25,182 nt of DNA, taken from the IMG/VR virus record IMGVR_UViG_3300043617_000010, positions 1-25,182 of that record. One strand, 5' to 3'. The position numbers and the translations under genes were made by a program. The stretch's first letter is position 1. Each line of letters opens with the position of its first letter. Below, piece after piece: positions 43-21,678 of this stretch. Under the pieces are notes generated by a model. The model did no database searches, was not told the origin of the DNA, and saw only the letters and a program-made list of their open reading frames with translations. This DNA is from a virus.

Positions 43-49
43 TTTGACA
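43..49 (+). promoter_or_regulatory. TTTGACA element ahead of small terminase
   Basis: First of nine copies of TTTGACA/TTTGACT found in gaps ahead of structural genes. It ends 13 nt before the GTG start at 63, and no Shine-Dalgarno is visible between them. Function unknown. Confidence 0.6.
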
Positions 50-62
50 TGGCACTCCCGGC

Positions 63-1082
63 GTGGCCAATGGCTCGAATGAAGTGACGGCGGAACACCT
101 GGCTGATTTGAAATCAGCGCGGGAGGCCCAGCTCGTGCGGAAGTTCGTCGCCGGCCGGCCGCTCCTGGAGCTCGAGATGTCGGAGCTGGCGCACTTGATC
201 CCGGCGGCCGCGCTCGCCAACCCGCCGCCGCTCCGCTCGGAGTACCGCCGCGAGATTCCGGAATATGCTGCCGAGATCGGCGTGCACAAGCGCTCAGTGT
301 ATCGGTGGGTCGACGCCGGCGTCGAGGCACGCGATCCCGTTCCCCTGGACCAGCCCGACCAGATCCTCGCGTGGTGGGGACGTCACATGAGCCGCTCGGC
401 GCCCGAGTACCTTGTAAAATGGGCCGCGAACGCAAACCCTCGCGGGGTTGGGGCGCCGCCCGGGGTGGCGGAAGAGAAAGCGATCGCCTCGAAAAACTCT
501 TCCGCCGGCATCGGAGAGAATGAAGACCCGCGGGCTTCGCGCCGCGAAGCGATCCATCTGACGGGCTTGTCCGGCATGGGGCTCGACGCCTCAGTGATCC
601 TGCTGCGGCAGACCGTCGAGGCCAATGCCAAGCTAGTGGGCAACGCGCACGCGAACCCCGACGACACCGCACTCGACCACTACCAAAATCGCCTCGAGAA
701 ATCGATCGACCAACTGCGCAAGGCGGAGGCCGCCCTCTTCCTCGTCCAAAAGCAGCGCGGCGACCTGGCGCCCAAATCCGAATTCCGCGCCGACCTGCTC
801 ACGATCGCCACCGGCCTGCGCGGCATGATGATGCGGCGCGCCAACAACGTCGGCGCCGCGGTGCGCCTGGCGCTCGACAAACTCAAGGTGGATCCCGCGC
901 TCTCCGCCGAGCTGCTCTGCGTGGTGCGCGCGGCCGTCGAGGCGGAAAGCCTGCGCGACGAGTATGAGCTGCGCAGCGTCCGCACCTGGCAAACGCTGCC
1001 GGGCGGCGCCGTGGTCTTGCCGCCGATGATCGCCCCCGCTCCCGCCGCGGCCGTGCTCGTGCCGGCGGCCGCCGCGCCATGA
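63..1082 (+). CDS. Terminase small subunit (DNA recognition), probable
   Basis: This 339-residue protein ends four bases inside the large terminase gene (ATGA overlap), the usual arrangement of a phage packaging operon. Residues about 66-110 look like a winged or simple helix-turn-helix (AAEIGVHKRSVYRWV followed by an ILAWW segment), as expected for the part that binds the packaging site. Residues about 175-235 form a charged helical stretch (HYQNRLEKSIDQLRKAEAAL) suited to oligomerisation. The C-terminus is Ala/Pro-rich and probably contacts the large subunit. The start is GTG at 63; no better ATG lies close in frame, and the TTTGACA element is 13 nt upstream. It is longer than many small terminases (about 150-200 residues). 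The assignment rests mainly on position plus the HTH; sequence similarity to lambda Nu1 is not obvious. Confidence 0.75.
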   Translation: MANGSNEVTAEHLADLKSAREAQLVRKFVAGRPLLELEMSELAHLIPAAALANPPPLRSEYRREIPEYAAEIGVHKRSVYRWVDAGVEARDPVPLDQPDQILAWWGRHMSRSAPEYLVKWAANANPRGVGAPPGVAEEKAIASKNSSAGIGENEDPRASRREAIHLTGLSGMGLDASVILLRQTVEANAKLVGNAHANPDDTALDHYQNRLEKSIDQLRKAEAALFLVQKQRGDLAPKSEFRADLLTIATGLRGMMMRRANNVGAAVRLALDKLKVDPALSAELLCVVRAAVEAESLRDEYELRSVRTWQTLPGGAVVLPPMIAPAPAAAVLVPAAAAP

Positions 1083-3034
1083 TTGCGACAGTACCGCTCG
1101 CCGCCACCTCGGCGTGGTCGCCTGGCTCCGCCGTCCCGGATGTCTTCGAGCGAATCTTCGCTGCCCCGTCGCCGCTGGGCGAAGTCGATTGGGATGAGGA
1201 GAATATTTTTCTCTCGAAAAAGGAGTCGAGTACTTCCTCCGGCATTTATCGTTCATACGTCACCCCTCATGCCCGGTTCATCCGCGAGCAGATGGGCAAC
1301 CCGCTGCTGCGTCAGATCACGATCCAGAAGAATGACCAGAGCTCGATCACCCGGCACGCGCTCAATCTCATCTGCCGGATCGTCGCCGAGCGCCCCCGCA
1401 ATGTCCTCTACGTGATCAACTCCCTCGAAGAGGCCCGGCGCATGTCCGCTCGCTTGCGCGCCTCGCTGATCGCCTGCCCCGCCACGCGTGACCAGGTCAC
1501 CGAGGGCCAGGACCATGAGGACACGGAGCTGATGACGCTCACCTTCAACCTCCGCGACATGGTGATTTATTTCGTCGGCGGCGGTTCGATCGGCGGTGTC
1601 GCGAACAAACAGATTTCCGTGATCATCGTCGACGAGGCCGACAAGATCCCGCGCGTCGCCGCCTCGCAGAACACCCACGTCGTCGACGAGGCGAAGTCCC
1701 GCTTCAAATCCGTGCCGATCGGCGAGGGCCTCATCATCGTCTTCTCCAAGCCGAACCAGGAAACGGATATCGTCCACACCGAGTACAAGCTCGGCACGAT
1801 GCGCACAGGGCGCATGCCCTGCCCGCACTGCGGCCACCGCCAGGAGTGGGTGCAGCAGCGCCTGATCTTCGAACACTGCAAGCTCCCGGGCGGCGACTAC
1901 GACAAGGCCCGCGTGCTCAAGGAGTCCTTCTACCGTTGCGAACGGGCTGGCACACCGGAGTGCGGCGAGGGCCAGATCTACGACCACCACCGCGGCAACG
2001 CCACCGCGCACCTCGAGTGGGTCGCGACGAACATCAATCCCGAGCCCGGCCATGAATCGTTTCACGTCACCGACTTCTGCCTCAACCCCGAATTTTTCCC
2101 CGACGCGTCCCTCGGCCGCATCGCCCTGGACCTGATCGAGGGCATCAAAAAGCCGGTGAAGAACAAGGCGGTGCAGGCCGCCCGCTTCGGGCTGCCCGAG
2201 ATGCTGCAGCGCGCGCAGCTCAAAGAGGACGACATCTATGCCCTCCGGTCCAACTACGTTCGGGGCACCGTGCCGCGGGGTATGATTTATGTCGGCATCT
2301 ACTCCGACCTGCAGGGCATCGGTCCGAAGTGGGTCAAGTTCGGCATCAACCGGAAGGAAGAGCTCTTCATCATCGATTGGGGCACCTTCCTCGCGATCGA
2401 CGACCTCATGGCCGAGGCGCGCCTGGGCGTGCCAGAGATCGACGAATCGCAACAGATGGCGCCACCGCAGGGCGAATCGCCTGCGCAGTACAAGCCAACA
2501 GGCATCATCCTCTACCCGCAGAACGGCGGAATCGACGAAGGAGATGAACATGCGATCGTGCGCTCCTTTGTCGTGCGCTCCGGCTTCTTCTTCCTGCCGA
2601 CCAAAGGTCGCGGCCAGGTGCAGCAGCGCGGCTCGCTTGTATCGCCCAGCCCGCGCGATCACGACGGGCACAAGTTCGAGGCCTACCACTTCAACGACGA
2701 TCAGTTCAAGAAGGCGCTCTACCTCCACCGGATCCGCGACCACCACAAAATCATCGCCGGCAAGTCCCGCGTGCCACGCATTCACTTCCCGATCGATGTC
2801 GACCATCAGATGGCCGCCGAGATGACGTCGGAACACCTCACGATCGAGAAGGATCCGCGCGGCTACCAGGTCGAGAAGTGGGAGAAGGATGGGCCCAACG
2901 ATTTCGGCGACGGCGTAAAGGGCTGTCTCGTCATGTGGCACGTCCTTGGCCCCCGCGTTCTCGAGGGGCTCGTCGCCCAGGAAGCTGCCGCTCAGGAAGC
3001 CGCCGCGGCCACACCGGCGGCCCCCAAAGTTTGA
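1079..3034 (+). CDS. Terminase large subunit, GpA-like packaging ATPase/nuclease
   Basis: The 651-residue protein drives DNA into the procapsid and cuts concatemers. Walker B is clear (VIIVDEAD, residues 181-188). The Walker A position, K84-N-D-Q-S-S-I-T91, lacks the classical GKT but keeps a lysine at its start, like the deviant Walker A of lambda gpA. A four-cysteine zinc-finger-like insert follows (C248xxC251 and C287x7C295), then the GpA-type segment GHESFHVTDFCLNP near residue 324. The C-terminal half should carry the RNase H-like nuclease (start of the domain near YVGIYSDLQGIGPKWVKFG). Length matches the GpA family (about 600-700). The ATG at 1079 overlaps the stop of the small subunit. 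The tail is Ala-rich (QEAAAQEAAAATPAAP). Family assignment is secure; the exact nuclease residues are not. Confidence 0.93.
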   Translation: MIATVPLAATSAWSPGSAVPDVFERIFAAPSPLGEVDWDEENIFLSKKESSTSSGIYRSYVTPHARFIREQMGNPLLRQITIQKNDQSSITRHALNLICRIVAERPRNVLYVINSLEEARRMSARLRASLIACPATRDQVTEGQDHEDTELMTLTFNLRDMVIYFVGGGSIGGVANKQISVIIVDEADKIPRVAASQNTHVVDEAKSRFKSVPIGEGLIIVFSKPNQETDIVHTEYKLGTMRTGRMPCPHCGHRQEWVQQRLIFEHCKLPGGDYDKARVLKESFYRCERAGTPECGEGQIYDHHRGNATAHLEWVATNINPEPGHESFHVTDFCLNPEFFPDASLGRIALDLIEGIKKPVKNKAVQAARFGLPEMLQRAQLKEDDIYALRSNYVRGTVPRGMIYVGIYSDLQGIGPKWVKFGINRKEELFIIDWGTFLAIDDLMAEARLGVPEIDESQQMAPPQGESPAQYKPTGIILYPQNGGIDEGDEHAIVRSFVVRSGFFFLPTKGRGQVQQRGSLVSPSPRDHDGHKFEAYHFNDDQFKKALYLHRIRDHHKIIAGKSRVPRIHFPIDVDHQMAAEMTSEHLTIEKDPRGYQVEKWEKDGPNDFGDGVKGCLVMWHVLGPRVLEGLVAQEAAAQEAAAATPAAPKV

Positions 3035-3036
3035 CA
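3030..3036 (+). promoter_or_regulatory. TTTGACA element ahead of the 69-residue gene
   Basis: The element contains the TGA stop codon of the large terminase and ends 12 nt before the next ATG at 3049. No Shine-Dalgarno lies in the gap. Confidence 0.6.
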
Positions 3037-3048
3037 CCTGCTCTCCGC

Positions 3049-3258
3049 ATGGACGCATCCGAGCAGCTTAAGACCTTCGACCAGCTGGCCAACAAAGCCA
3101 GGCGCGCCGGCCTGGTTCGTTACCATGATCACGGCGTTCTCATCGTCGTGCAGCCCGACGGGCTGAGGCCGCCGGTGACGGTTGCAGGCGTCCTCGATTC
3201 TGCGCGCCGCCCCGAGGCCACGGCACCACAACCTGCCGGTCCCGTCTCAGCGGGATAG
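3049..3258 (+). CDS. Small hypothetical phage protein, 69 residues
   Basis: I do not recognise this protein. It starts MDASEQLKTFDQLANKAR and has a short helical N-terminus, a middle with beta character (GVLIVVQPDG) and a disordered Ala/Pro C-terminus. It lies between the large terminase and the gpW-like gene, a slot that in lambdoid phages holds small head-completion proteins. The ATG at 3049 is preferred over in-frame starts further upstream because those would overlap the terminase by more than 100 bases, and because 3049 sits 12 nt behind a TTTGACA element like several neighbours. A role in head completion or DNA packaging is only a positional guess. Confidence 0.6.
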   Translation: MDASEQLKTFDQLANKARRAGLVRYHDHGVLIVVQPDGLRPPVTVAGVLDSARRPEATAPQPAGPVSAG

Positions 3259-3272
3259 GGACGGCGCGCGCC

Positions 3273-3279
3273 TTTGACA
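3273..3279 (+). promoter_or_regulatory. TTTGACA element ahead of gpW-like gene
   Basis: It lies in the 34-nt gap after the 3258 stop and ends 13 nt before the ATG at 3293. The remaining gap is CT-rich without a Shine-Dalgarno. Confidence 0.6.
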
Positions 3280-3292
3280 TATCCCGGCTCCC

Positions 3293-3616
3293 ATGCCGGC
3301 CCAAGCAGTCGACCACTACGACACCATCCTCGCCTATCTCCGCGACAAATACTGGAACGCGGCAGACGGAACGTGGGATGTAGAGGCACTGCGCGAGATG
3401 CGGGATGCCGCCTTCGCCGCGGCCACGCGCGTCATCACGATCACCAGCTCCTCGAGCGAGGCCGGCGGCGCGGCCGCGGGCGAGATTACCTTCGACCGGA
3501 TGACCCTCGTCGCCGCGCTCAACGACCTCCTCGCCGAGGCCGATCCCGCGGCCGCCCCGCCGGTGCGCAGCCGCGGCATCCAAGTCGTTTTCTCGAACCG
3601 CAAGTCGAGCACCTGA
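3293..3616 (+). CDS. gpW-like head-tail joining protein, probable
   Basis: The 107-residue product lies directly before the portal gene, where lambda has W. The second half reads as a gpW-type fold: a short beta segment (GEITFDRMTL) runs into a helix (VAALNDLLAEAD), and an RG-rich end follows (VRSRGIQVVF). This parallels the strand-helix-strand ending of lambda gpW. The N-terminal half (DHYDTILAYLRDKYWNAAD) is an added helical region; lambda gpW is only 68 residues. Such proteins seat under the portal to stabilise packaged DNA and accept the tail. Sequence identity to known gpW proteins looks low, so the call rests on synteny plus secondary-structure pattern. Confidence 0.55.
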   Translation: MPAQAVDHYDTILAYLRDKYWNAADGTWDVEALREMRDAAFAAATRVITITSSSSEAGGAAAGEITFDRMTLVAALNDLLAEADPAAAPPVRSRGIQVVFSNRKSST

Positions 3617-3625
3617 GGCTTGCCC

Positions 3626-5263
3626 ATGTCCGGCTCAAAACGCAGCAAGCTCGCCTCAACGAAAGGAAGTCGTGCCGGCACGACTTCCCCGGGCCCCGCC
3701 CTGGATGGCGAGCCGAATGTGCGGCCGCTCTCCTCTTCCTTCCCTGGTTTCGGAGGATCCGGCAGCGGCTACAACGGCGCCGACACCACTGCCTCCCGTG
3801 GCCTGGTTTATTTTCCCCAGCCGGATACGCGGAAGGAGGTAACGCCCTACACCTTCGGCGAGCTCCGCCGTCGTGCGCGGTACCTGGTGGCGAATGTGGG
3901 CCTCGCCGGTCGCTTCGCGCAGGCGGTCCCGCGCCTTGTCCTGGGCACGGGCATGATGCCGCAGGCCCGCACCTCCGATCGCGAATGGAACAAATTGTCG
4001 GGGGAGCGTTACGACGCCCGCGCCGGCCAGGCGCTCACCTACGCCCTCGACGGCAAGGCCGACTGCTATTCCGACCAGCTGATCAGCTACGGCTCGTCCA
4101 TCGTGGATGGTGACTTCTGGAAGGTGAAGACGCTCGACGATTCCGGTGCCCGCATCCTCGCGCACTATGAGTCGCACCAGTGCGACAACGGCCAGCTCTC
4201 CGCCGGCGACGATGTGAAGTCCCTCTTCAACGGCGTGCGCGTGAATAAGCACAACCGGATGATTTCGGCGCGCTTCCTCGATCCGAACACGCCGGGCCGC
4301 ACAATCGAGATCGCGGCCGAGAACCTGATCCACGTCTGCCGTCATTTCCGCCATGGCCCGGCGCGACCGGTTTCCCGCTTCCATCGTGCGGTGAACCATA
4401 TGCTCGACAGCTCGGAGGCGATCGCGGCTTTCAAAGGGCAAATCAAGGTCGCCGCCGAGAAGGGCTATTACATCACGAAGACCACAGACGCGAAAGCTCC
4501 CCAAGGCTGGGGCGTCACCAATGGCCCGACCTCCAGCCCGCTCACCACGCAGACGGTGACGATGCCTGACGGCTCGAAGAAGAAAATCTCGCTCGAGCAA
4601 ATCATGGGCTCGCCCGGGCAAGATATCCCGGATCTTCCGCCTGGCTTCGACCTCAAGCTCCTCCTCGACCAGCGTCCCCACCCGAACACGCTCGGCTTTC
4701 TCGACTACCTGGTGCGCGACATGTCGTGGGGCTTCGACCTCGCGCCTGAGATCATCTGGTCCATCGCGAACATCGGCCGCTCCAACACGTACCTCGTGAT
4801 GGCTGACGCGCAGTCCTTCGTCGAGGTGGAGCAGCAGAACTACGTGGACAACGTCGCCGGCCAGGAGTGGATGTGGTTTGTCCAGGGCGAGATGATCGCC
4901 GGCCGCCTCCGCGCGTGCCAGGATCCGGAGTGGTGGAAGGTCGCCTTCATCCCACCCGCGCGCTGGACGCTGAACAAGGGCAGCGACGGCAAGCTCTACC
5001 TCGAGCAACTCCGCTCCGGCGCCCTTACCTTCCGCCGATTCTTTGGCTGGGATGGCATGGGCCTCGAGCAGCTCGACGAGTGGCTCGACGAGAAGGCCTA
5101 CATCATCCGCGGCTGCCGCGAGCGCACCGAGCTCGTCGACCGGGTCGACGAGACCATCGCCCAAATCTACGGCCGCGCCGGCAACGGCGCACCCACCGCG
5201 ACCAGTGACGCGCCGATCGACGGCAACGCAGCCGAGGACGACGAAACCAACGACGACAAATAG
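3626..5263 (+). CDS. Portal protein, lambda gpB family
   Basis: The 545-residue product matches lambda-type portal length (about 530). It forms the dodecameric ring through which the terminase pumps DNA. The early region (TPYTFGELRRRARYLVANVGLAGRFAQAVPRLVLGTGMMPQ) is typical of the family: an arginine-rich helix followed by a beta strand. The segment ENLIHVCRHFRHGPARPVSRFHRAVNHMLD fits the conserved 'H.f...rpgQ.RGvs' region, and the WSIANIGRSNTYLVMADAQ stretch fits the conserved domain ahead of the crown. The C-terminus is Asp/Thr-rich and disordered. Start: the ATG at 3626 is preferred to a TTG six bases upstream because TGAGG, overlapping the previous stop, lies at a usable distance from it. 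The gene is followed after seven bases by the prohead protease. Confidence 0.9.
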   Translation: MSGSKRSKLASTKGSRAGTTSPGPALDGEPNVRPLSSSFPGFGGSGSGYNGADTTASRGLVYFPQPDTRKEVTPYTFGELRRRARYLVANVGLAGRFAQAVPRLVLGTGMMPQARTSDREWNKLSGERYDARAGQALTYALDGKADCYSDQLISYGSSIVDGDFWKVKTLDDSGARILAHYESHQCDNGQLSAGDDVKSLFNGVRVNKHNRMISARFLDPNTPGRTIEIAAENLIHVCRHFRHGPARPVSRFHRAVNHMLDSSEAIAAFKGQIKVAAEKGYYITKTTDAKAPQGWGVTNGPTSSPLTTQTVTMPDGSKKKISLEQIMGSPGQDIPDLPPGFDLKLLLDQRPHPNTLGFLDYLVRDMSWGFDLAPEIIWSIANIGRSNTYLVMADAQSFVEVEQQNYVDNVAGQEWMWFVQGEMIAGRLRACQDPEWWKVAFIPPARWTLNKGSDGKLYLEQLRSGALTFRRFFGWDGMGLEQLDEWLDEKAYIIRGCRERTELVDRVDETIAQIYGRAGNGAPTATSDAPIDGNAAEDDETNDDK

Positions 5264-5270
5264 TTTCCGC

Positions 5271-6128
5271 ATGAATCCAAACTTTCAGATTCACCTTCTC
5301 CGTTCGCTTTGTGGCGCGCCGTTGCTGATGCACGATGGCTACCTCTCTTCACTCACGGCCATGCTCCTCAACCAGGCTGGCAATATCCAGCCGGAGTCGC
5401 GAGCGAACGCCGCCGATACCCGCAATCTGAAACCGTGGGAAGCGTGGGAGGCCATGAGCGTCACACCAGGCGGCACCGCGGTGATTCCGATGCGCGGCAT
5501 GCTCTACGCTGGTCTCGATCAGTTGACCGCCTGGTGGTTTGGCCTCTGTCGCCCGGAGGCGCTGCAGGCCAACATCGAAGCCGCGGTTGATGACCGCAAG
5601 GTGAAGGCGATCGTCCTGGATTCCGATACTCCGGGCGGAATCACGACGCAGATCCCCGAGACCGGCGAAGTCATCGCCGAAGCGCGCGGCCAGAAATTCA
5701 TCGCAACGCACGTGTCAGGCATGTGCTGCTCTGCCGGCTATTGGCTCGCGTCGCAGACGCACCACATCGATGCCGCCGGGTCCTCCGACGTGGGCTGCGT
5801 GGGAGTGTATGCGGCCTACTACGACATGACGCGCATGCTCGAGATGCGCGGCGTCGACCTCGAGCTCTTCAAGGCCGGCAAGTACAAGGCCATGGGTATC
5901 CCGGGCGAACCGCTGACCGATGAACAGCGCGCCTTTATCCAGGCCGACGTCGACCGCATCAACACGCGCTTTGTCGCTACCGTCCAGGCCGCCCGTCCTC
6001 AAATCGGTCGCGACGACTTGGAAGGCCAGGTCTTCGACGGCGATTTGGCCTATGCGAAGGGCTTCACCGATTCGAAGTCGCGCAACCTCGGCGCGATGGT
6101 CCGCGGGCTCGAAAGCCGCGGCGTTTGA
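5271..6128 (+). CDS. Prohead protease, S49 (SppA/ClpP-fold) family
   Basis: The 285-residue protein is a serine peptidase that matures the procapsid by cutting scaffold and portal. The nucleophile is Ser154 in GMCCSAGYWLASQ, the usual S49 block; the general-base lysine is probably Lys204 or Lys206 in FKAGKYKAMGIP. The preceding VKAIVLDSDTPGG segment forms the oxyanion-hole strand and loop. The lambda equivalent (gpC) also carries the scaffold Nu3 nested in its 3' end; here a separate Ala-rich gene follows instead. The ATG at 5271 comes seven bases after the portal stop. The frame stays open far upstream into the portal gene, but that part is a shadow. Confidence 0.9.
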   Translation: MNPNFQIHLLRSLCGAPLLMHDGYLSSLTAMLLNQAGNIQPESRANAADTRNLKPWEAWEAMSVTPGGTAVIPMRGMLYAGLDQLTAWWFGLCRPEALQANIEAAVDDRKVKAIVLDSDTPGGITTQIPETGEVIAEARGQKFIATHVSGMCCSAGYWLASQTHHIDAAGSSDVGCVGVYAAYYDMTRMLEMRGVDLELFKAGKYKAMGIPGEPLTDEQRAFIQADVDRINTRFVATVQAARPQIGRDDLEGQVFDGDLAYAKGFTDSKSRNLGAMVRGLESRGV

Positions 6129-6130
6129 CA
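6124..6130 (+). promoter_or_regulatory. TTTGACA element ahead of scaffold-like gene
   Basis: It includes the stop codon of the protease gene. The spacing to the next ATG (6163) is 32 nt, longer than most copies. Confidence 0.55.
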
Positions 6131-6162
6131 AGCCACCACGACTAATCGTTTCCACCACGCGC

Positions 6163-6732
6163 ATGAAAAATTCAATTCTGTCTCTCCTGGCCGCCTCGAT
6201 CATTCCTTTCCGGCTCTACGCCGTCGAGCCCGCCAAGGAACCGACCCTCGTCGAGAAACTCAACGCCTGGCTGAAGGACAAGGGGCAGCTGACCGCTGAT
6301 CTCTCCGCCGCCAACCAGCGCGCGGCCGAGGCCGAGGCCGCCCTGGCCAGCGCCAAGACCGAAGCCGCGAGTGCCGCGACAACGGCCGCCACGGCCCTCA
6401 CCGAAGCCACCGGCAAGGTCACCGCCGCCGAAGCCGCTCTCGAGACCGCGAAGTCCGAGGCCTCCGCTTCTGCCCTTCAGGTGTCAGCCTTCGGCGCCTT
6501 GTTTGCTGCCATCGGATTCAAGCCCGCGGCCGACGCCAAGCCCGAGGACGTGCAGAAGGCGTGGAATACCCACATCGCAAACGGCGTCTCCGCCAAGCTG
6601 GCCGAGCTCGGCGTCAAGGCCGACAAGCTGCCGCCGCCCGTGAGCGCGGACCAAGGCGAGTCGAGCATCAAGAATCTCAAGGGCTTCGACAAGGTGCGCG
6701 CGGCGTTCGCCGCGCAGGCCCAGAAAAACTGA
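6163..6732 (+). CDS. Probable scaffold protein with N-terminal signal-peptide-like segment
   Basis: The 189-residue protein lies between the prohead protease and the major capsid gene, the classic scaffold slot. Residues about 45-105 are an Ala/Glu-rich coiled coil (AEAEAALASAKTEAASAATT), and the C-terminus is helical (NLKGFDKVRAAFAAQAQ), both typical of scaffolds. The N-terminus is odd: MKNSILSLLAASIIPFRLYA followed by VEPAKE reads as a lysine, a hydrophobic core and an Ala-containing cleavage site, i.e. a Sec signal. A cytoplasmic assembly factor should not have one. It may be a membrane anchor for procapsid assembly, or the protein may not be the scaffold at all. The ATG at 6163 fits the signal-like start; earlier in-frame codons fall inside the protease gene. 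Confidence 0.6.
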   Translation: MKNSILSLLAASIIPFRLYAVEPAKEPTLVEKLNAWLKDKGQLTADLSAANQRAAEAEAALASAKTEAASAATTAATALTEATGKVTAAEAALETAKSEASASALQVSAFGALFAAIGFKPAADAKPEDVQKAWNTHIANGVSAKLAELGVKADKLPPPVSADQGESSIKNLKGFDKVRAAFAAQAQKN

Positions 6733-6738
6733 ACCCTC

Positions 6739-6745
6739 TTTGACA
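6739..6745 (+). promoter_or_regulatory. TTTGACA element ahead of major capsid gene
   Basis: It lies seven bases after the 6732 stop. The 45-nt gap to the capsid ATG is the longest among the nine copies and is C-rich with no Shine-Dalgarno. Confidence 0.55.
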
Positions 6746-6790
6746 CCTCTCCCCGTCAGCTAACCCGCCCACCCTCAACTGCTGCCCACT

Positions 6791-7741
6791 ATGTCCCGTA
6801 TCACTCTCCTCGACGTCGCCAAGAATAACGGCTCCGATGCCGTCGTCGGATTGGTTGAGGAGGCCCTCTCCTACGCTCCGGAGGTCGGCCTCTTCCCCGT
6901 TCGCTCAATCGAAGGTACGGCGTACAAGACGCTCGTGCGCGAAGGCCTCCCGGCCGTCGATTTCATCGCCGCCTCCAGCGGCATCGACCCCGGCAAGTCC
7001 ACCTTCCGCAACGACCTCTTCGAGTGCGCCATCCTTGGCGGCCGCATCGAGGTCTGGAAGAGCGTCCTGGACTCGCCGGAGAACGGCCCGGCCGCCGACA
7101 TCAAGGCGACGGAGGCCTCGGGTGTCATGGAGGCCGCCATCCGCAAGGTCGGCCGCCAGATCATCTACGGCAAGACCGCGCTGGGTCGCCCGCTGGGCTT
7201 CGTCGGCCTGGTCTCCTTCGTCGACGCGAGCAAGATCCTCGACGCCACGGGCGCGGCGGCCAACACGGGCAGCTCGGTTTATTTCGTGAAGTTCGGCCCG
7301 AAGGACGTCCAGCTTGTCATGGGTCGGAACGCCGAAATGTCCCTCAGCGATTTCCGCGTGGAATCCCTGACCGACGCCGAGGGCAAAAAGGGCCCCGGCG
7401 AGGTGGCCGACCTCTGCTCCTGGATCGGCCTCCAGAGCGCCTCCAAGAACTCGGTGGTCCGCATCAAGAACATCACCGAGGAGGCCGGCAAGGGCGTCAC
7501 GGACGCGCTGCTCGCCAAGGGCCTCCGGAAGTTCCCGACCGGCTTCAAGCCCGACGCCATTCTCATGAGCAGCCGCTCCCGCGGCCAGCTGCAGGATTCA
7601 CGCTCGCTGGTGGCCGCCCTGCGCGGGGTCGGCAAGAACGACCTCGGTGGCAGCATGGCCTACGCGCCGACGCCCACCGACTTCGAGACCATCCCGATCA
7701 TCGCCACCGACTCCATCCTCGATATCGAGCCCATCGCCTGA
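6791..7741 (+). CDS. Major capsid protein
   Basis: The 316-residue product has the length of an HK97-fold coat protein and follows protease and scaffold-like genes. Recognisable elements: an N-terminal arm (ITLLDVAKNNGSDAVVGLVEEAL), an E-loop-like region around TAYKTLVREGLPAVDF, a helix with a polar face (VMEAAIRKVGRQIIYG), and a late region with RGQLQDSRSL and an IPIIATDSIL strand near the end. That last block resembles other phage coat proteins, which commonly close with 'G.Pii.td.i'. It should be the most abundant product of the operon. The next gene is a small cement-like protein and then two hairpins, which fits a need to express these two genes more than those behind. I cannot name the precise coat family without a profile search. 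Confidence 0.85.
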   Translation: MSRITLLDVAKNNGSDAVVGLVEEALSYAPEVGLFPVRSIEGTAYKTLVREGLPAVDFIAASSGIDPGKSTFRNDLFECAILGGRIEVWKSVLDSPENGPAADIKATEASGVMEAAIRKVGRQIIYGKTALGRPLGFVGLVSFVDASKILDATGAAANTGSSVYFVKFGPKDVQLVMGRNAEMSLSDFRVESLTDAEGKKGPGEVADLCSWIGLQSASKNSVVRIKNITEEAGKGVTDALLAKGLRKFPTGFKPDAILMSSRSRGQLQDSRSLVAALRGVGKNDLGGSMAYAPTPTDFETIPIIATDSILDIEPIA

Positions 7742-7794
7742 GCTCGCCGGCGCGCCGCCTCTCACTCGTTCCCACCCACCAACTCCCTCCTCCC

Positions 7795-8199
7795 ATGCTG
7801 TCCCGCTCTATTCTCGACGCCGCGCTTATCGCCACGAAGGCCTTCCCGTTGGCTGGCGCTTTCAACACTTCGCCCGCCATCGACCTTGAGACGGCCGCGC
7901 CTGGCATCTCCCTGGAAACGGTTGAGTTCGGGGTCGTCGCCCCCGCCCTCCCGCTCGTCGCCGATGCCGCGACGATCAGCTACGTCGTCGAGGATTCGGC
8001 CGACGGCGTCGCCTTCGCCCCGGTCGTCGGGTTGGCCCCGATCATTTCGACCGGTGCCGGTGGCCTGGGCGCTCCCGCGCTCGAGCGCAAGGTGAAGCTG
8101 CCGCCCTCGATCCGCCGTTACGTGCGGGCGAGCACCACCGTACTCGCCGGCGGCGGCGACAACACCGCCCTCAAGTATTCCGCCTCGCTGTTCTTCTGA
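7795..8199 (+). CDS. Probable capsid cement/decoration protein (Bbp16-like)
   Basis: The 134-residue protein follows the coat gene directly. It is almost all beta-prone: alternating hydrophobic strands (TISYVVEDSADGVAFAPVVG), Gly turns, and a closing strand (LKYSASLFF). The pattern 'residual difference data of a measured quantity', with SIRRYVRAS near the end, resembles Bbp16-type capsid cement proteins, which bind the coat lattice and stabilise it. The assignment is by position, size and strand pattern, not by a strong motif. The 53-nt gap upstream is C-rich without a Shine-Dalgarno and without a TTTGACA element. The ATG at 7795 is the first sensible one; the long upstream extension of this frame is a shadow of the capsid gene. 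Confidence 0.6.
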   Translation: MLSRSILDAALIATKAFPLAGAFNTSPAIDLETAAPGISLETVEFGVVAPALPLVADAATISYVVEDSADGVAFAPVVGLAPIISTGAGGLGAPALERKVKLPPSIRRYVRASTTVLAGGGDNTALKYSASLFF

Positions 8200-8201
8200 T
8201 C

Positions 8202-8219
8202 CCTTTCCGAGCCGAAAGG
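8202..8219 (+). other. Small hairpin after the cement gene
   Basis: A perfect 6-bp inverted repeat (CCTTTC/GAAAGG, 6-nt loop) begins right after the stop codon. It is short and only interesting together with the larger hairpin that follows. Confidence 0.35.
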
Positions 8220-8233
8220 TCTTGGGATTCCAG

Positions 8234-8268
8234 CACCGCCCGCTTCGGCCTCGCCGTCGCGGGCGGTG
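8234..8268 (+). terminator. Hairpin, probable partial terminator after the capsid/cement genes
   Basis: A perfect 10-bp GC-rich stem (CACCGCCCGC paired with GCGGGCGGTG) encloses a 15-nt loop. The tail is TCATTTCC, not a run of T, so termination is likely incomplete or Rho-assisted. It separates the capsid and cement genes from the connector genes, so it could step down transcription or protect the 3' end of the capsid message. Confidence 0.6.
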
Positions 8269-8283
8269 TCATTTCCTCCCCTC

Positions 8284-8290
8284 TTTGACT
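8284..8290 (+). promoter_or_regulatory. TTTGACT element ahead of head-closure gene
   Basis: A variant ending in T, located 15 nt after the terminator-like stem and 17 nt before the ATG at 8308. Confidence 0.55.
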
Positions 8291-8307
8291 CCGCTCGATC
8301 GTCGATC

Positions 8308-8667: not shown

Positions 8668-8671
8668 TGCC

Positions 8672-9379: not shown

Positions 9380-9381
9380 TC

Positions 9382-9388
9382 TTTGACT
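9382..9388 (+). promoter_or_regulatory. TTTGACT element ahead of tail terminator
   Basis: It lies two bases after the stop of the neck gene and 21 nt before the ATG at 9410. Confidence 0.55.
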
Positions 9389-9409
9389 CCGCCCAATCTT
9401 CGAAGCGCC

Positions 9410-9949
9410 ATGACAAAGCCCACCCCCGAGGAACTCTATAGCTGGGAATTGAACATCCTGCCGATCGCTTCTGCGATCCTGAAGGATGGCGGCGTGCCGG
9501 TCTTCTCGCCCTTCATCCCCGCCGCGGCCGGCCCCGTCGAGTTGCAGCTGCTGCGCGAGAAGCACGCCATTGTCACCTTCGAGCCCGCGCCGGTGGATCC
9601 CACCGTCAAGGCCTTCGCCACGGGAGTCTCCGACGCCGAGGACGGCGTCGACTCGATCGAGGTCGGCTGGAGCGGCGACCTGGTCGTCGAGCACAGCGTG
9701 CCCGTGGACGACAACCCGCCGGCGCCTGGCGAGGTCCCGGGCTGCTACTGGGAATCCCTGCGCCTGGCTGGCCGGATCCGCGCGCTGATGCTCTCGCCGC
9801 ACAATCCCTTCGCCCAGCGGCTCCCGTGGTACAACATCCTCTCGATTCGCTACGTCCAGCCCCAGCGCGGCGTCGATGCCCCGCGCTCCGCCAACCAGGC
9901 GACCGAACGTTTCCGCATCACCTTCATGCCGGCGCGCGGAACGCTCTGA
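9410..9949 (+). CDS. Probable tail terminator protein (gpU-like)
   Basis: The 179-residue acidic protein follows the neck gene and precedes the tail tube, the place of lambda U. The order of helix (EELYSWELNILPIASAIL), beta-rich middle with VELQLLREKHAIVTFEP, a long helix (GCYWESLRLAGRIRALML) and a final strand (ERFRITFMPARG) suits the alpha/beta terminator fold, in which a hexamer stops tube growth. An in-frame TTG at 9383 exists, but it overlaps the TTTGACT element and an ATG is available at 9410. The product is longer than lambda gpU (131). Confidence 0.55.
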   Translation: MTKPTPEELYSWELNILPIASAILKDGGVPVFSPFIPAAAGPVELQLLREKHAIVTFEPAPVDPTVKAFATGVSDAEDGVDSIEVGWSGDLVVEHSVPVDDNPPAPGEVPGCYWESLRLAGRIRALMLSPHNPFAQRLPWYNILSIRYVQPQRGVDAPRSANQATERFRITFMPARGTL

Positions 9950-9957
9950 TCCCGCGT

Positions 9958-9964
9958 TTTGACA
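9958..9964 (+). promoter_or_regulatory. TTTGACA element ahead of tail tube gene
   Basis: It is preceded by an extra T (TTTTGACA), starts nine bases after the previous stop and ends 16 nt before the ATG at 9981. Confidence 0.6.
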
Positions 9965-9980
9965 CTCGGGCGCTCATACC

Positions 9981-10691
9981 ATGAGCGACCACGATTTCCC
10001 GACAATGATGGACGGCCGCCGCGCGCCGCGCCAGCCCACCGTAAAGTGCTGGAACCTACTCCTCGATGACCTCCCGCGCCGCTACCACTGGCTGAAGGAC
10101 GACATCAAGGTCTCCGGCTATTCCCTCGACTGGCTGATCGAGTCCACGGGCGAGCACCTGGGCGGCTTCTCCGGCGCCTCCGCGCGCAAGGGTCCGCTCA
10201 CCGTCCTCCTCGACGACGCCACCGACCCGGTCCCGCTTCCTGGCCACGTCGTTTCCATCACGAAGGGCGCCATCACGGGTTGGTATCGCGTCGAGGAAAC
10301 GTCCGAGCCGATGGAGGGCAAGCAACAGGTCACGCTCACGCTCACGCTGACGCGCCTGGTCAACCCGTTCTTCACCGGCCTCCTCTCCGAGGACGAGGGC
10401 GACACCCTCCGCGTGGATCTTTCGCTCGCGACCATGGATCCGGTCACGACGATTGCCACGAACCCGGTGAACCATCGCGAGGGCTCGACCAAGGATTATT
10501 TCATCGAGCCTCTCGGCGACACGACGACCTACCCGGGCATCACCATCGATCCCGCGACGGGTGAGATTTCGGTCGCGGTCGCCACGGCCGTGGCGGGTGT
10601 GTACGAACTCGATGTCCTGGGCACCGACACCCTCACCGGCAAGCGCACGCTCAAGGGCGGCTGCCGCCTCATCGTCACCATCACGGCTTAA
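9981..10691 (+). CDS. Major tail (tube) protein with C-terminal Ig-like domain
   Basis: The 236-residue protein has the lambda-V layout: an N-terminal tube domain of about 155 residues and a C-terminal Ig-like domain. The tube part is beta-rich with a long polar loop (STGEHLGGFSGASARKGPL) and paired strands (KQQVTLTLTLTRLVNP). The last 70 residues (YPGITIDPATGEISVAVATA, then AGVYELDVLGTDTLTG) match the putative Ig (He_PIG) pattern, in which a 'Itid..tG.is' strand is followed by a 'G.y.l.v.atD' strand. In lambda this domain decorates the tail surface and aids adsorption. The tube protein should be the most abundant tail component, and two hairpins follow its stop codon. Confidence 0.8.
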   Translation: MSDHDFPTMMDGRRAPRQPTVKCWNLLLDDLPRRYHWLKDDIKVSGYSLDWLIESTGEHLGGFSGASARKGPLTVLLDDATDPVPLPGHVVSITKGAITGWYRVEETSEPMEGKQQVTLTLTLTRLVNPFFTGLLSEDEGDTLRVDLSLATMDPVTTIATNPVNHREGSTKDYFIEPLGDTTTYPGITIDPATGEISVAVATAVAGVYELDVLGTDTLTGKRTLKGGCRLIVTITA

Positions 10692-10717
10692 CCGGACCAT
10701 CTTCATCGCTGGTCCGG
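10692..10717 (+). other. Hairpin directly after the tail tube gene
   Basis: A perfect 8-bp stem (CCGGACCA/TGGTCCGG) with a 10-nt loop starts at the base after the TAA stop. It could protect the 3' end of the tube message or work together with the stronger stem 13 bases further on. Confidence 0.5.
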
Positions 10718-10730
10718 CCGGCACCACCTT

Positions 10731-10760
10731 GGGTCGCTCGCACCAGCCGAGCGACCCTTT
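10731..10760 (+). terminator. Strong hairpin between tail tube and chaperone, probable attenuator
   Basis: A perfect 10-bp stem (GGGTCGCTCG paired with CGAGCGACCC, 7-nt loop) is followed by TTT and then CCCTTT. The T tract is short, so partial termination is more likely than complete. It ends seven bases before the ATG of the next gene, so it could also shield that start and lower translation of the chaperone, which is needed in small amounts. Confidence 0.65.
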
Positions 10761-10766
10761 CCCTTT

Positions 10767-11444
10767 ATGCTCACCGCCGCCGCCCAGGAGCTTCTCGCCA
10801 GGGAAAACCGTGCCCGGCTGCGCGCCTACGATCCGATCGCGCTTCCGCTGGCCCTGCCTGACCGCCGCGGCCGCTCCCTCGTTTTCCCCCTGGCCACGCT
10901 CACCTGGCGCCATTGCCGCGACCTGGCCAAGGCTGACAATGCTTTCTTCATCCCGGGCACCGTTCCGCAGCGCGGCGACTACTACGAGCTGCTGTGGCGC
11001 TTGCACCCGTACTTCCGCAGCGCTTCAGGGCGCTATGCAAACCTTCCCAGGGACGACCGCCGGCCGGGACCGTTCCGCTCCTGGCTGAGTCGGAAGCTGG
11101 TCTGGATCTACTGCTGGAATCTTGACCTGGTCGCCTCCGAGATCCCGGTGCGCCTCCGCCTTCAGGAATCTCGCAACGATCAGCCCGCCGCAAAACGTCG
11201 GGATGCCGGCACCGACTTGCTCGCGCAACTTGCCCCGGTCAATGCCCTGGACGACGCGGCGGAATATCTCACTGCGCGCGGCTTCGGCCTCGAGGATTTT
11301 CTCGATTGCCCGGTGGCCGTTTCGTACCAGCTGCAGCGCCGCGAGTTGATCGCTGCCGGCAAGGCCGAGCTCTTCATCTCCGAGGCCGGCAAGCTCCTCG
11401 AGTTCGAGCCGGAGCCCCCGGCTAAATCGGAGGCCAGCAAATGA
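10767..11444 (+). CDS. Tail assembly chaperone (gpG-like), probable
   Basis: The 225-residue protein lies between tail tube and tape measure, the position of gpG/gpT tail chaperones that wrap the tape measure before the tube forms. It begins with a helix and a beta hairpin (YDPIALPLALPDRRGRSLVFPLATLTWR), has an aromatic helical middle (YYELLWRLHPYFRS, RKLVWIYCWN) and a second helical domain (AEYLTARGFGLEDFLDCPVAVSYQLQRRELIAAG). Many such genes use a -1 frameshift to make a longer form. I see no clear slippery heptamer, and the next gene simply overlaps by four bases (ATGA). Sequence similarity to known chaperones is not evident. Confidence 0.6.
   Translation: MLTAAAQELLARENRARLRAYDPIALPLALPDRRGRSLVFPLATLTWRHCRDLAKADNAFFIPGTVPQRGDYYELLWRLHPYFRSASGRYANLPRDDRRPGPFRSWLSRKLVWIYCWNLDLVASEIPVRLRLQESRNDQPAAKRRDAGTDLLAQLAPVNALDDAAEYLTARGFGLEDFLDCPVAVSYQLQRRELIAAGKAELFISEAGKLLEFEPEPPAKSEASK
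11429..11433 (+). promoter_or_regulatory. Clear Shine-Dalgarno (GGAGG) for the tape measure gene
   Basis: GGAGG stands seven bases before the ATG at 11441, inside the end of the chaperone gene. It is one of the few strong ribosome sites in the operon and contrasts with the SD-less starts behind TTTGACA elements. Confidence 0.6.
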
Positions 11445-12934
11445 ACCAAATCTGGCTCCTGCTCGGTCTCAAACCGGAGGGCTTTCGCGCCGGCATGAAG
11501 AAGGCCGTCGACGACACCAAGGAATTTGAAAAAGGCTGGAAGGGCCTCGCGAAGATTTTCGCCGCCGGCGGCATCACGACGGTGATCCTCGGCTTCCTGA
11601 AGCAGATGGCCAGCGAGGCCCAGGCCACCCGGGCGGAACTCGAAAAGCTCGGTCAACCCATCCCGCAGGCCGTCACCGCCCTGGCCACCCTGGGGGATGC
11701 TTTCGACGGCCTCGGCAAAATCTCCGGGACCGTGGTCGGCACGATCCTTTCCGGCTGGAAGCAGCTCTTCGACGTCGGCGGCTCGCTGATCAACCGCATG
11801 CGCGGCATCAGCGAGGCCCAGGAAAACATCGCCGCCGCGGCCGCCAAGGGTGCGGAGGAGCAAGAGGCCGCCCTGGCGAAAGCCCGCGCGGAAAACTCGC
11901 CGGAGAAAATCAAGGCCGCGCAGAAGGGCCTCGACGACTACCGCCGCAAAGCCGCGATGGAGAGCCTCGATGGTGAGGCGAAGATGTCGGCGCTCTTGCA
12001 GGAGAACATTCGCCTCCGCGAGCTCGCGAAGTCGACCGACCAGCAAACCCTTGTGGGCATCCAGGCCCAGAAAGACCTCGAGGCAAACATCGTCGACATC
12101 AGGAAGCTCGATCTTCAGCTGAAAAAGGACGCCACCGCGGAACAGAAAAAGTCCTCCGACGAAGCAGCTAAGGCCGCGGCGCACCTGGCCCAGGAACACG
12201 AGCGGCTTTCCAAGGCAAAGTTCGAAGGCCTCTCGATCGACAAGCAGATCGAGACGCTCGACCGCTCCCGCGCGGCCCTCGAGGAGAACATCCGCGCGAT
12301 GAAGCACGACGGCCTGGATACGACGACCCAGGAGGCCGACCTGGCGGAAGTGATCAACGCGCTGACGGCCAGGCGCAAGGATCTCACCGAACAGGTGGCC
12401 GACGCCACTGCAAGAGTCACGAAGGAGATGGAAGGCCAGGCCGAGGCCGCGCGGCGCACGCAGCAGGCCTACGAAGCGATCATGTTCGGCATCACCAATG
12501 GTGGCGCCACCTCGGACGAGGTCCAGCGGTCGGGCGACAGCGCGCTCCAAGAGAAGATCCGGCGCAACAACCAGCAGTTGATCGGTCTCAGGCAAAACCC
12601 GGGCGGCCCTTTCGACTACGGCAACAGCCTGACCATCCTCCAGCTCGAGAACGAAAACAACCGGCTCCAGAAGGAGCTCTCCCTTCGCAACAACCTCCGC
12701 AACGACGTCGGCTTCATGGGCGTCGAGGGCGCGCGCACTCAATTCAAAGGCGACCCACTTATCTTCGATCGCCTCGTCGAACAATTCATCAAGGGCGGAA
12801 ACGAGGATGCCGAGCAGACCCGTCTGCTGCGGGATATTCGGGCGAACCTCCGCCCCACTGACGAGAACACCAAGCGCATCGCCGACCTCCTCGATAAAGG
12901 CGTCAACACCGTCATCCAGGGCAACACCGGCTGA
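11441..12934 (+). CDS. Tape measure protein, short
   Basis: The 497-residue protein follows the chaperone and is almost entirely helical. Residues about 1-45 are a basic entry segment (FRAGMKKAVDDTKEFEKGWKG). A hydrophobic stretch follows (IFAAGGITTVILGFLKQM, about 39-56), which could cross the host inner membrane during DNA entry. Long charged coiled coils then run through most of the protein (EEQEAALAKARAENSPEKIK, KAKFEGLSIDKQIETLDRSR). Tape measure length sets tail length at roughly 0.15 nm per residue, so about 75 nm is implied; lambda's is 853 residues. No lytic or peptidase domain is visible. The C-terminus ends in a helix (NTKRIADLLDKGVNTV). Confidence 0.8.
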   Translation: MNQIWLLLGLKPEGFRAGMKKAVDDTKEFEKGWKGLAKIFAAGGITTVILGFLKQMASEAQATRAELEKLGQPIPQAVTALATLGDAFDGLGKISGTVVGTILSGWKQLFDVGGSLINRMRGISEAQENIAAAAAKGAEEQEAALAKARAENSPEKIKAAQKGLDDYRRKAAMESLDGEAKMSALLQENIRLRELAKSTDQQTLVGIQAQKDLEANIVDIRKLDLQLKKDATAEQKKSSDEAAKAAAHLAQEHERLSKAKFEGLSIDKQIETLDRSRAALEENIRAMKHDGLDTTTQEADLAEVINALTARRKDLTEQVADATARVTKEMEGQAEAARRTQQAYEAIMFGITNGGATSDEVQRSGDSALQEKIRRNNQQLIGLRQNPGGPFDYGNSLTILQLENENNRLQKELSLRNNLRNDVGFMGVEGARTQFKGDPLIFDRLVEQFIKGGNEDAEQTRLLRDIRANLRPTDENTKRIADLLDKGVNTVIQGNTG

Positions 12935-12947
12935 TCCCTCTTTCGCC

Positions 12948-14837
12948 ATGCTCCCGACCCCAGACCAAATCCGCATGACCGACGGCCGCCTCCACGAGAC
13001 GGAAATCTTCGGCGAGGCCCACACCCGGTTTCCCTTCAAGGAGAACTCCAAGCCCGACCACCACGCGCGCATCCACACGCGCAAGTTCTGGTGCGATCCC
13101 CGGCGCTACGTCCCGCTCCTCTCGAACCGCACGCCCTTCGAGAATAAGCTCAACAGCTCGGACGCCTTCGACCCTGCCGCCTGGGCAAACCAGGCGGGCT
13201 TCACGCGCACGGCCGACAACGCGGCCAACCCGTGGGACGGCGCCGTCACCGTTGATCGTCTGCTCGAGGCCGCCCCGGTCACCGGCCACCTTACCGGCCG
13301 CGCGTACGCTTTCACGGCGGCCGCCCGGCACGCGCTTTGGTCCATCCTGGCCCCGATTGGCGGCCGCCGTTTCTGGCGTCTGCGCGCGAACGACGGCACC
13401 ACGAACTTCGACGCGGTGTTCGATCTCGTGGCCGGCAAATTGAAGTCCATCGCCGGCGCCGGCGTCACCGCGTCGATCCTCAAGCTCGAGGGCGGCTACT
13501 TCCGCATCGCGCTGATGTTCACGCCGCTCGCGGCCGCCGGCACGGTCGCGCTTGCGGCCTCGACCGATGGCACGTTCGCCGCCTATGCCGGCGACCCCAC
13601 CAAGGGCTGCTTCCTGGCGCAGATCCAGCTCGAGCTCGGCGCCGCGCCTGGCCCGCTGATCGTCACCGCAGCGGCCGCGCGCTCCATCCTGGCGCCTGAT
13701 CGCGACCCCGAGGATATTTTCGCCTTCCTCCTCACCGAAACGGACCAGGGCGAATACGGCGGCGGCCTGTCCGCAGTGCAGCGGGAGTTCGGCCGGATCC
13801 CGCGCCGCCAATGGACCTATCCGGGCTCGAAATATATCACGAAGCCGGACTACACGCCTGGCTCGGCATATAATCCCTACGACGTGACCAGCGGTGCAAC
13901 TGCGAAGGGCCAGGCGGTCAACTTCCCCGATGAAGCATCGCTCGGGAACGCGAGCTACTCCGTGGCGAACGGCCTTTGGACTAGCGGCGACGGCTCGATC
14001 TACACGAGCATCAAGCAGCCCAGCGCGCAGACGCCGGCCTACGCCACCGCGGGAAACTTCACCCTGACTCGCGGTGCCAACACCACGGGCGCGCTCGCCT
14101 GGAACGCCGATGGCCCCACGATTTGCGCGGCGCTGAATGCGCTGCCGAGCTCGATCGCTGACGGCCTCAACTTCTACCCGAGCGGCGGCACCAATGGCCT
14201 CCAGGCCACCACCGGTGGCTTCCTAGTGTTCAACGTGAACGGCGGCAGCGACGCCGCCAGGCTCGTGCCGGTGACGATGAATCCCGCCGGCCTGACGCTC
14301 TCCGGCGCAAATTCGCCGAACGCGCGCACAAAGGTGTTCACCGCCAACACCCAAATCATCTACTTGAATTCGTGGCTGACGATCAACGCGCACGGCCTGG
14401 ACACGACGAAGGCGCTCGCCGTCTGCTACGGCGCGTCCGGCGGGGTGACGATCATCTACCCGCCCGGCTATTGGGGCAGCCAAAGCGCAAACGTGATTTG
14501 GGTGTTGGCCTACAATGATCCCGGCAAGCCCGCCACCCTGGTCGGTACCTACGCGAGCACTTTCGTCCTTTCCGCGGAGGGCTCCTACGCCGGCGGCACG
14601 CGGCTCGCCGGCCGCCAAGTCTACACCGATTATTACCTGCCAGGTGTGAGCGCGGGCATCGACGATCCCTCCGATATCACGAGCCCTCCTGGCATGCAGA
14701 ATCCGAGCACGTTTCTCACCGCGCTCCTGACGCCCTTGGCGGGGTACCAGGATTTTGAGAGCGACGGCGCGTCGTCCTGGCTCGGTCTCATTTATGGCCG
14801 GCCGGTAATGCAGGTGAACTTCGACGACTTAGTCTGA
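12948..14837 (+). CDS. Tail tip protein with carbohydrate-binding-like module
   Basis: The 629-residue protein is the first after the tape measure, where distal-tail or hub proteins are expected, but I recognise no Dit, Tal or gpJ domain. Residues about 1-65 may attach it to the tail. Residues about 68-231 follow the pattern of phage spike/CBM-like jelly rolls: a leading 'F.p..W', a 'FT...a..pWdG' turn, an 'AVFDL..GkL' strand pair, a 'LEGGYFRIAL' strand and the ending 'FLAQIQLELG'. The second half (about 330-520) is Gly/Asn/Thr-rich and beta-structured. The C-terminus ends near PVMQVNFDDLV. The ATG at 12948 is 13 nt after the tape-measure stop; the upstream extension of the frame is a shadow. 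Probable role: contact with surface glycans. Confidence 0.6.
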   Translation: MLPTPDQIRMTDGRLHETEIFGEAHTRFPFKENSKPDHHARIHTRKFWCDPRRYVPLLSNRTPFENKLNSSDAFDPAAWANQAGFTRTADNAANPWDGAVTVDRLLEAAPVTGHLTGRAYAFTAAARHALWSILAPIGGRRFWRLRANDGTTNFDAVFDLVAGKLKSIAGAGVTASILKLEGGYFRIALMFTPLAAAGTVALAASTDGTFAAYAGDPTKGCFLAQIQLELGAAPGPLIVTAAAARSILAPDRDPEDIFAFLLTETDQGEYGGGLSAVQREFGRIPRRQWTYPGSKYITKPDYTPGSAYNPYDVTSGATAKGQAVNFPDEASLGNASYSVANGLWTSGDGSIYTSIKQPSAQTPAYATAGNFTLTRGANTTGALAWNADGPTICAALNALPSSIADGLNFYPSGGTNGLQATTGGFLVFNVNGGSDAARLVPVTMNPAGLTLSGANSPNARTKVFTANTQIIYLNSWLTINAHGLDTTKALAVCYGASGGVTIIYPPGYWGSQSANVIWVLAYNDPGKPATLVGTYASTFVLSAEGSYAGGTRLAGRQVYTDYYLPGVSAGIDDPSDITSPPGMQNPSTFLTALLTPLAGYQDFESDGASSWLGLIYGRPVMQVNFDDLV

Positions 14838-15631
14838 TGGCGGCGCTTGTCATTACATCAGGCCGTGGGCTCTTGCAGCGGCGGGGCACAGATATGGTGC
14901 TCACCCTGCCAGGTCGCGAACCCGAGGTTCCGGTTGAGGCCGAAGAAATCGATCCGCGACTCGTGGCATGGTGGAAGATGAAGGAAGGCACCGGCACAAC
15001 GCTGGGCGACAGCACTGGCAAAGGAAACACCGTGCAGCTCGTCAACGGCCCGCAGTGGGCGAACGATGCGCAGGCAGGCGCTTGCCTGGAGTTCGACGGC
15101 ATCAATGATAGGTACGGGATCGGTGTGGCCCAGGATGGCGGCCAGCTTTTCGGCAGTCCGGCCAAAGCCACTTTTGCCTGCTGGATCAAATGCGCGCCCC
15201 AGTCGACCGCAGCCGGATCGTCGAAATATCTAATCTGGCCGCATCCCACAGCCGTCGCCTTTGGCTTTCAGGCGGGAGTCAATTCGCCGAGCGGCCTCAT
15301 TTCCCCGCCGCGCCAAAACAAGTTCTTCTTCCAGCAGTCGTCGCAGGTAAACCTGACCGATGTTACCGTTTCCGCGTGGAAGCATGTTGTGGCCGTGATG
15401 GACGGAGGGACAGGCCAGTTGAGAATGTACAGCGATGGCGCGCTGGAGAACACCATAGTCGCCGCCTCCCTTCCCGCGGCGTCCGGCGGCTTCGCCTACG
15501 TGCTCGGATTGGCGTACAACGGCTCGGCCTTCGCGAGCCGCTATGCTGGACGCATGAGGGACATGCGTATCTTTAACGACACGCTGACCGCCGCGGAGGT
15601 TAACCAATTGTATTCGGGGTCGCGCGTTTGA
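14837..15631 (+). CDS. LamG/concanavalin-like lectin-domain tail protein
   Basis: The 264-residue protein shares its first A with the last base of the previous stop (TGATG), so translation is probably coupled. Residues about 40-260 are a laminin-G-like jelly roll: the entry LVAWWKMKEGTGTTLGDSTG, then CLEFDGINDRYGI, then ATFACWIKC, then VSAWKHVVAVMDGGTGQLRM and SDGALENTIV, and finally GRMRDMRIFNDTLTAAEVNQLY. These are the standard blocks of LamG_3 domains, which usually bind glycans or matrix proteins with a calcium ion. Residues 1-38 are a non-LamG leader that may dock to the tail. It is likely a receptor-binding protein next to the CBM-like protein. Confidence 0.85.
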   Translation: MAALVITSGRGLLQRRGTDMVLTLPGREPEVPVEAEEIDPRLVAWWKMKEGTGTTLGDSTGKGNTVQLVNGPQWANDAQAGACLEFDGINDRYGIGVAQDGGQLFGSPAKATFACWIKCAPQSTAAGSSKYLIWPHPTAVAFGFQAGVNSPSGLISPPRQNKFFFQQSSQVNLTDVTVSAWKHVVAVMDGGTGQLRMYSDGALENTIVAASLPAASGGFAYVLGLAYNGSAFASRYAGRMRDMRIFNDTLTAAEVNQLYSGSRV

Positions 15632-15649
15632 TCCCCATGTGGCCCCGGC

Positions 15650-15656
15650 TTTGACA
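15650..15656 (+). promoter_or_regulatory. TTTGACA element ahead of the baseplate-like gene
   Basis: The last copy in the operon. It ends 14 nt before the ATG at 15671 in a 39-nt gap, and no Shine-Dalgarno is present. Confidence 0.6.
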
Positions 15657-21641: not shown

Positions 21642-21678
21642 TTAACAGTCACCTGCTCTGCCACTGAGCTACCGGGCA
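21642..21678 (-). tRNA. tRNA-Asn(GUU), 5' half only
   Basis: Reading leftward from 21678: a 7-base acceptor strand TGCCCGG, TA, D-stem GCTC, loop AGTGGCA, D-stem GAGC, A, anticodon strand GGTGA and loop CTGTTAA with anticodon GTT. After this the sequence departs: no TCACC to close the anticodon stem, no T-arm and no CCGGGCA acceptor. So the tRNA match stops exactly at the end of the anticodon loop, as expected where integrase exchanges strands in a tRNA gene. Not a functional tRNA by itself. Confidence 0.8.

Follow-up and report, generated by a model that had tools for sequence, protein, structure and literature searches.

A TTTGAC element locked to the starts of late genes in a probable Opitutaceae phage and its relatives

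Introduction

Cluster K mycobacteriophages and Microbacterium phages of cluster EF carry start-associated sequences (SAS/ESAS), which are short asymmetric repeats near start codons (PMC3203893, PMC7302621). By comparison of their features, these appear to be the nearest known kind to the TTTGAC element described here. Both are asymmetric repeats in one orientation at a near-constant distance from the start, mostly ahead of large-gap genes; both keep to a single functional half of the genome, are absent from or rare at the gene starts of the host, and sometimes overlap the previous stop codon. The cluster K SAS, however, is 13 bp long (GGGATAGGAGCCC), contains AGGAG, sits 3–7 nt ahead of the start codon, and is found at non-structural genes, whereas TTTGAC has a core of 6–7 bp, no Shine–Dalgarno sequence and no AGGAG within 3–7 nt of the start, stands ~13 nt away, and marks virion genes.

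Stoperators of the cluster A phages L5 and Bxb1 are 13 bp long and occupy 20–30 sites genome-wide, including the early promoter (PMC6550527). They share with TTTGAC the asymmetry, the single orientation, and the location in gaps of temperate phages, but are not start-locked. Host leaderless promoters, with TANNNT ~12 nt before the ATG, are also start-tied and devoid of a Shine–Dalgarno sequence, but have another box at another position. T4-type late promoters (TATAAATA) consist of one short box ahead of many late genes and need a phage-made factor. In T4, late genes possess an AT-rich box and a leader bearing a Shine–Dalgarno sequence, whereas in TTTGAC genes the box is followed by GC-rich sequence and no common sigma factor was identified. 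A word-based, non-exhaustive literature search, with most subscription journals outside its range, returned no earlier report of a TTTGAC start motif.

Materials and Methods

The window, i.e., the whole stretch of DNA analyzed, is a linear IMG/VR record of 25,182 bases with a non-coding share of 5.9%. Scans with single terminase and portal sequences gave no matches; alignments of the two proteins added 98 IMG/VR loci. The contigs are partial, and most of the IMG/VR relatives have no assigned host. Features accompanying the motif were analyzed in 126 motif-bearing genes of 47 contigs.

Results

The window encodes a GpA terminase, a lambda-type portal, an S49 protease, and a GP7-like capsid protein. 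The latter (6791–7741) is ~70% identical to those of L093–L101, whereas the terminase and portal of the same phages are only ~20–25% identical, a contrast that suggests the capsid gene has been exchanged. The 36-base tRNA piece, read by inspection as tRNA-Asn from its anticodon, had exact matches in 84 genome-contig stretches, nearly all titled Opitutae/Opitutaceae or Verrucomicrobia; an Opitutaceae bacterium is thus the most likely host, in agreement with the guess of the first-pass annotation of the window. The next gene after this piece resembles a tyrosine integrase by inspection, while the Pfam scan gave no match for it. The late operon and the tRNA piece are separated by a single minus-strand gene (20708–21361), whose product has, by inspection, the look of a secreted protein (moron).

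TTTGACW occurs nine times in the window, always on the plus strand, while dinucleotide shuffles contained 2.3 copies on average and none of 100 reached nine. The positions, orientation, and start-codon spacings listed by the first-pass annotation were reproduced exactly (Table 1), and TTTGAC had no other occurrence on either strand. The annotated placement of all copies in gaps held for seven of them; strictly, it failed for those at 3030 and 6124, which overlap the preceding TGA stop (5/7 bases). In six of the nine copies the spacing was 12–17 nt (P = 0.0003 against random placement within the same gaps). The reported lack of a Shine–Dalgarno sequence was confirmed before each of the nine starts, and in six cases a −10 box set 17 nt onward would indeed begin no earlier than the start codon, while in a seventh the two would overlap. 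A terminator-like hairpin (8199–8283) lies 3' of the decoration-protein gene and recurs at the same junction in relatives, with or without TTTGAC behind it.

Table 1. Positions of the TTTGACW copies and of two further features in the window.
Feature	Position	Strand	Remark
TTTGACA	43..49	+	13 nt ahead of GTG start 63; terS-like gene
GpA-type large terminase	1079..3034	+	anchor for finding relatives
TTTGACA	3030..3036	+	overlaps terminase stop codon; 12 nt ahead of ATG 3049
TTTGACA	3273..3279	+	13 nt ahead of ATG 3293; head gene
TTTGACA	6124..6130	+	overlaps stop of S49 protease gene; 32 nt ahead of ATG 6163; scaffold-like gene
TTTGACA	6739..6745	+	45 nt ahead of ATG 6791; major capsid, GP7-like
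TTTGACT	8284..8290	+	behind terminator-like hairpin; 17 nt ahead of ATG 8308
TTTGACT	9382..9388	+	21 nt ahead of ATG 9410
TTTGACA	9958..9964	+	16 nt ahead of ATG 9981
TTTGACA	15650..15656	+	14 nt ahead of ATG 15671; tail-region gene
5' part of tRNA, putative att site	21642..21677	−	36-base piece; anticodon GTT by inspection

Among GpA-terminase prophages of 252 Opitutaceae genomes, four (L250, L251, L252, L254) carried the element and the others did not. These four contained 18 forward copies and 1 reverse copy, with spacings mostly of 12–15 nt. Relatives with the same gene order were checked for loss of the element, which the first-pass annotation had named as a possible refutation; instead, orthologues at 23–50% protein identity retained it at the same starts. 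It was found upstream of terS in 5/5 phages (the window and these four prophages) and at 13–14 nt ahead of the head gene after the terminase, again in 5/5 (one copy being ATTGACA). The tail gene at 15671, the scaffold-like gene, and the gene that follows the decoration protein kept it as well. It also precedes two major capsid genes that share no detectable similarity, at 45 and 44 nt. The capsid relatives L093, L094/L095, L096, L101, and L163 carried it in gaps ahead of starts. An unbiased k-mer search ranked TTTGAC or TTGACA first among the upstream words of the window, L251, and L252; in the Akkermansia phage L267 the same search did not reveal the element.

Other repeated words were seen in some of the related prophages. 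L251, L252, and L254 have a common AAGGAATCT word upstream of terS, in a non-coding stretch of 400–500 nt before the late operon, possibly the main late control region. In L123 (G201:C435; a reversed locus), tandem TTCCTAA repeats precede several starts (gaps near 9771, 14786, and 17177), and TTGAC(G/C) stands 14–15 nt ahead of three other starts.

In 1,088 distinct genes of the related contigs, with starts taken from a codon-usage caller that made no reference to the motif rather than from curated annotation, the 5' end of TTGAC lay at −21, −20, or −19 in 110 cases against ~4 expected. The control words CAGTT, GTCAA, TTGAT, and TTGAA gave no comparable start-locked peak in the same genes, and a secondary, smaller TTGAC peak was located at −33 to −36. 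The spacing thus has modes of ~20 and ~34 nt, with outliers at 44–54 nt (the major capsid gene being at 45), and it is specific to the lineage: 19 in L356, 20 in L283, 21 in L297, and 33–34 in L094. In L094 the motif stands at a constant distance from the start, whereas its separation from the preceding stop ranges from 2 to 149 nt; therefore, the element belongs to the start. Internal copies were found even within the fused protease/scaffold gene of L093 and L094, ahead of in-frame ATGs and at each phage's own spacing (L093, 5988, 14 nt; L094, 9528, 29 nt). These nested starts recall the lambda C/Nu3 arrangement, in which the scaffold is nested.

The element is restricted to late genes: none of 91 genes upstream of the terminase carried it, compared with 95 of 446 from terS/terminase on (P = 5e-9; the contrasts here and below are between related sequences, and their P values are guides). 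In the L252 prophage of genome G107, 18 kb of upstream sequence, comprising the early region and adjoining host DNA, contained a single near-start TTGACW, at terS. Stoperator-like sites, at which a prophage repressor would block transcription of the late operon, are improbable given this distribution. They would suit the temperate phages, the single orientation, and the asymmetric sites in gaps, and L5 stoperators are likewise oriented with transcription (PMC6550527); however, their position would be independent of start codons and they would occur at the early promoter too, whereas here the start distance is fixed while the stop distance varies, no sites occur in the early regions, which would be a repressor's first point of action, and the core is only 6–7 bp.

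The core was (T)TTGACA in the 126 genes, or (T)TTGAC(A/T) for the element overall, and the remaining sequence over 45 nt upstream was flat: no −10, AT-rich, or second box was found near the motif. The spacer at −13 to −6 was 77% GC versus 52% in the same contigs (P = 6e-8). GG within −4 to −2 was present in 26% versus 6% (P = 1e-7), often as GG-Y right ahead of the ATG, and a pyrimidine at −1 in 77% versus 61–62% of same-contig controls (P = 0.002–0.005; 0.005 with other gap genes as the control). Terminator-like hairpins were located upstream of 19% of motif genes versus 5% of large-gap genes (P = 5e-4). Other genes avoid base pairing between the spacer and the first codons (z +2 to +3), but motif genes do not (z about −2), which would suit a spacer that is untranscribed or whose structure does no harm.

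The first-pass annotation had also offered an antitermination or transcript-processing site. TTTGACA resembles the boxA core, and a hairpin follows some copies with 27–29 nt spacing. By eye such hairpins between motif and start were suggestive, but against shuffles they were unconvincing (z −2.3 and 0). Moreover, the Opitutaceae rrn boxA (L258) is GCTCTTTGAAA, and the phage copies lack the GYTC half of the GYTCTTTRA core present in the host rrn leader; a nut/boxA-like site would also leave the start-locking without reason. This idea is accordingly weakened, and we consider it highly improbable.

In the host chromosomes the element is not a gene-start signal. In six Opitutaceae genomes TTTGACW was at most as frequent as its reversed control word, and in 610 kb of DNA drawn from many Opitutaceae species it was not enriched ahead of genes. 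In strain EW11 (G002), no motif peak was present at −20 of gene starts; copies near starts were few and mostly 26–35 nt away, and TTTGAC as a host-wide signal was rejected. The genome-wide count, set by the first-pass annotation as a possible refutation, hence showed a word poorly represented in hosts and not placed 13 nt before genes. Large-gap genes of EW11 had no Shine–Dalgarno rise, CC before the ATG, and a TANNNT peak at −15 to −11; on these grounds leaderless starts seem usual in an Opitutaceae host of this type. Few Shine–Dalgarno starts were also reported for Verrucomicrobia bacterium IMCC26134 and Akkermansia in a paper on 16S/mRNA pairing (PMC10783764).

Discussion

The start-locking, late-only use, and conservation of the TTTGAC element and its exclusion of Shine–Dalgarno sequences are real. 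The view that it is a start-tied signal is strongly supported by the start-locked, late-only copies in the relatives. So is the claim that it is not an ordinary sigma-70 promoter: the relatives have a GC-rich spacer and no −10, and the position where a −10 hexamer would be expected, 16–18 nt after TTGACA, would be inside the gene.

We assign a probability of roughly 45% to the element being a late promoter of single-box type, or a regulatory site, that gives rise to leaderless or nearly leaderless mRNAs. TTTGAC would act at the DNA level, as a promoter box or a regulator-binding site, and would be read by a putative phage-made factor produced after early expression; transcription would begin at the start codon or no more than a few nt from it, leaving the late mRNAs with no leader or nearly none. 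A phage-stage-specific reader is likely: late-only use together with absence from the host suggests that the reader appears late and is probably phage-made. The structure-tolerant GC-rich spacer, the pyrimidine at −1, and the upstream terminators fit a transcript beginning at or just before the start codon, as do the signs of leaderless starts in the host. The main difficulty for the promoter is the missing melting-prone box 3' of the motif, and the two spacing modes with the outliers at 44–54 nt also count against it.

We failed to find a sigma factor common to the motif-positive phages, although a Sigma70_r4 protein is encoded by one record, that behind L356; a search of the phages for T7-like RNA polymerase gave no match, and its control was equally silent. 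Among the mechanisms offered by the first-pass annotation, the box of an unusual sigma factor that yields leaderless messages fits more of the data, but no such factor was identified. Primase and helicase families fitted as early products special to motif-positive phages but are probably lineage markers. The early regions of the motif-positive L262, L265, L266, L296, and L317 encode a common family of proteins of 133–277 aa with a helix-turn-helix-like stretch (LTCEEAASLFGQG); two members scanned had no significant Pfam match. As an early product common to the motif-positive phages, this small family was rejected, being present in only 5/16 motif-positive phages.

The main rival to the promoter is a Shine–Dalgarno-independent translation signal, in which UUUGAC in the mRNA would recruit or position the ribosome instead of a Shine–Dalgarno sequence, perhaps with a phage RNA-binding or ribosome-modifying protein. 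It agrees with the sharpness of the TTGAC peak, which equals that of the GGAGG peak in this gene set, with the depletion of Shine–Dalgarno words ahead of motif genes (4.8% versus 12.8% expected from shuffled leaders), and with the nested in-frame protease/scaffold starts. Only 1% of the genes tightly coupled to the preceding gene carry the element, which also fits, because coupled genes need no start signal of their own. However, neither early genes nor host genes use it, the 16S 3' end (L258) has no stretch complementary to TTTGAC, and initiation regions usually have the opposite character to a GC-rich spacer that tolerates structure. We regard this RNA-level signal as possible but doubtful. 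The proposal that TTTGAC replaces the Shine–Dalgarno sequence thus stands as regards their mutual exclusion, while the lack of a 16S complement speaks against it, as does the late-only use, which argues against a plain signal read by host ribosomes. A late-stage, Shine–Dalgarno-independent translation code in which a phage-modified ribosome or an RNA-binding protein of the phage recognizes UUGAC ~20 nt before the AUG, and so shifts translation to virion genes, is unlikely.

TTTGAC is a statistically strong gene-start signal, tied to late genes, in phages of a poorly studied phylum, and it is unlike textbook promoters or ribosome-binding sites. It improves start-codon calling in these viruses and is an independent case beside the unexplained start-associated sequences of actinobacterial phages. 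It also gives a handle on how late genes are switched on in hosts that rarely use Shine–Dalgarno sequences.
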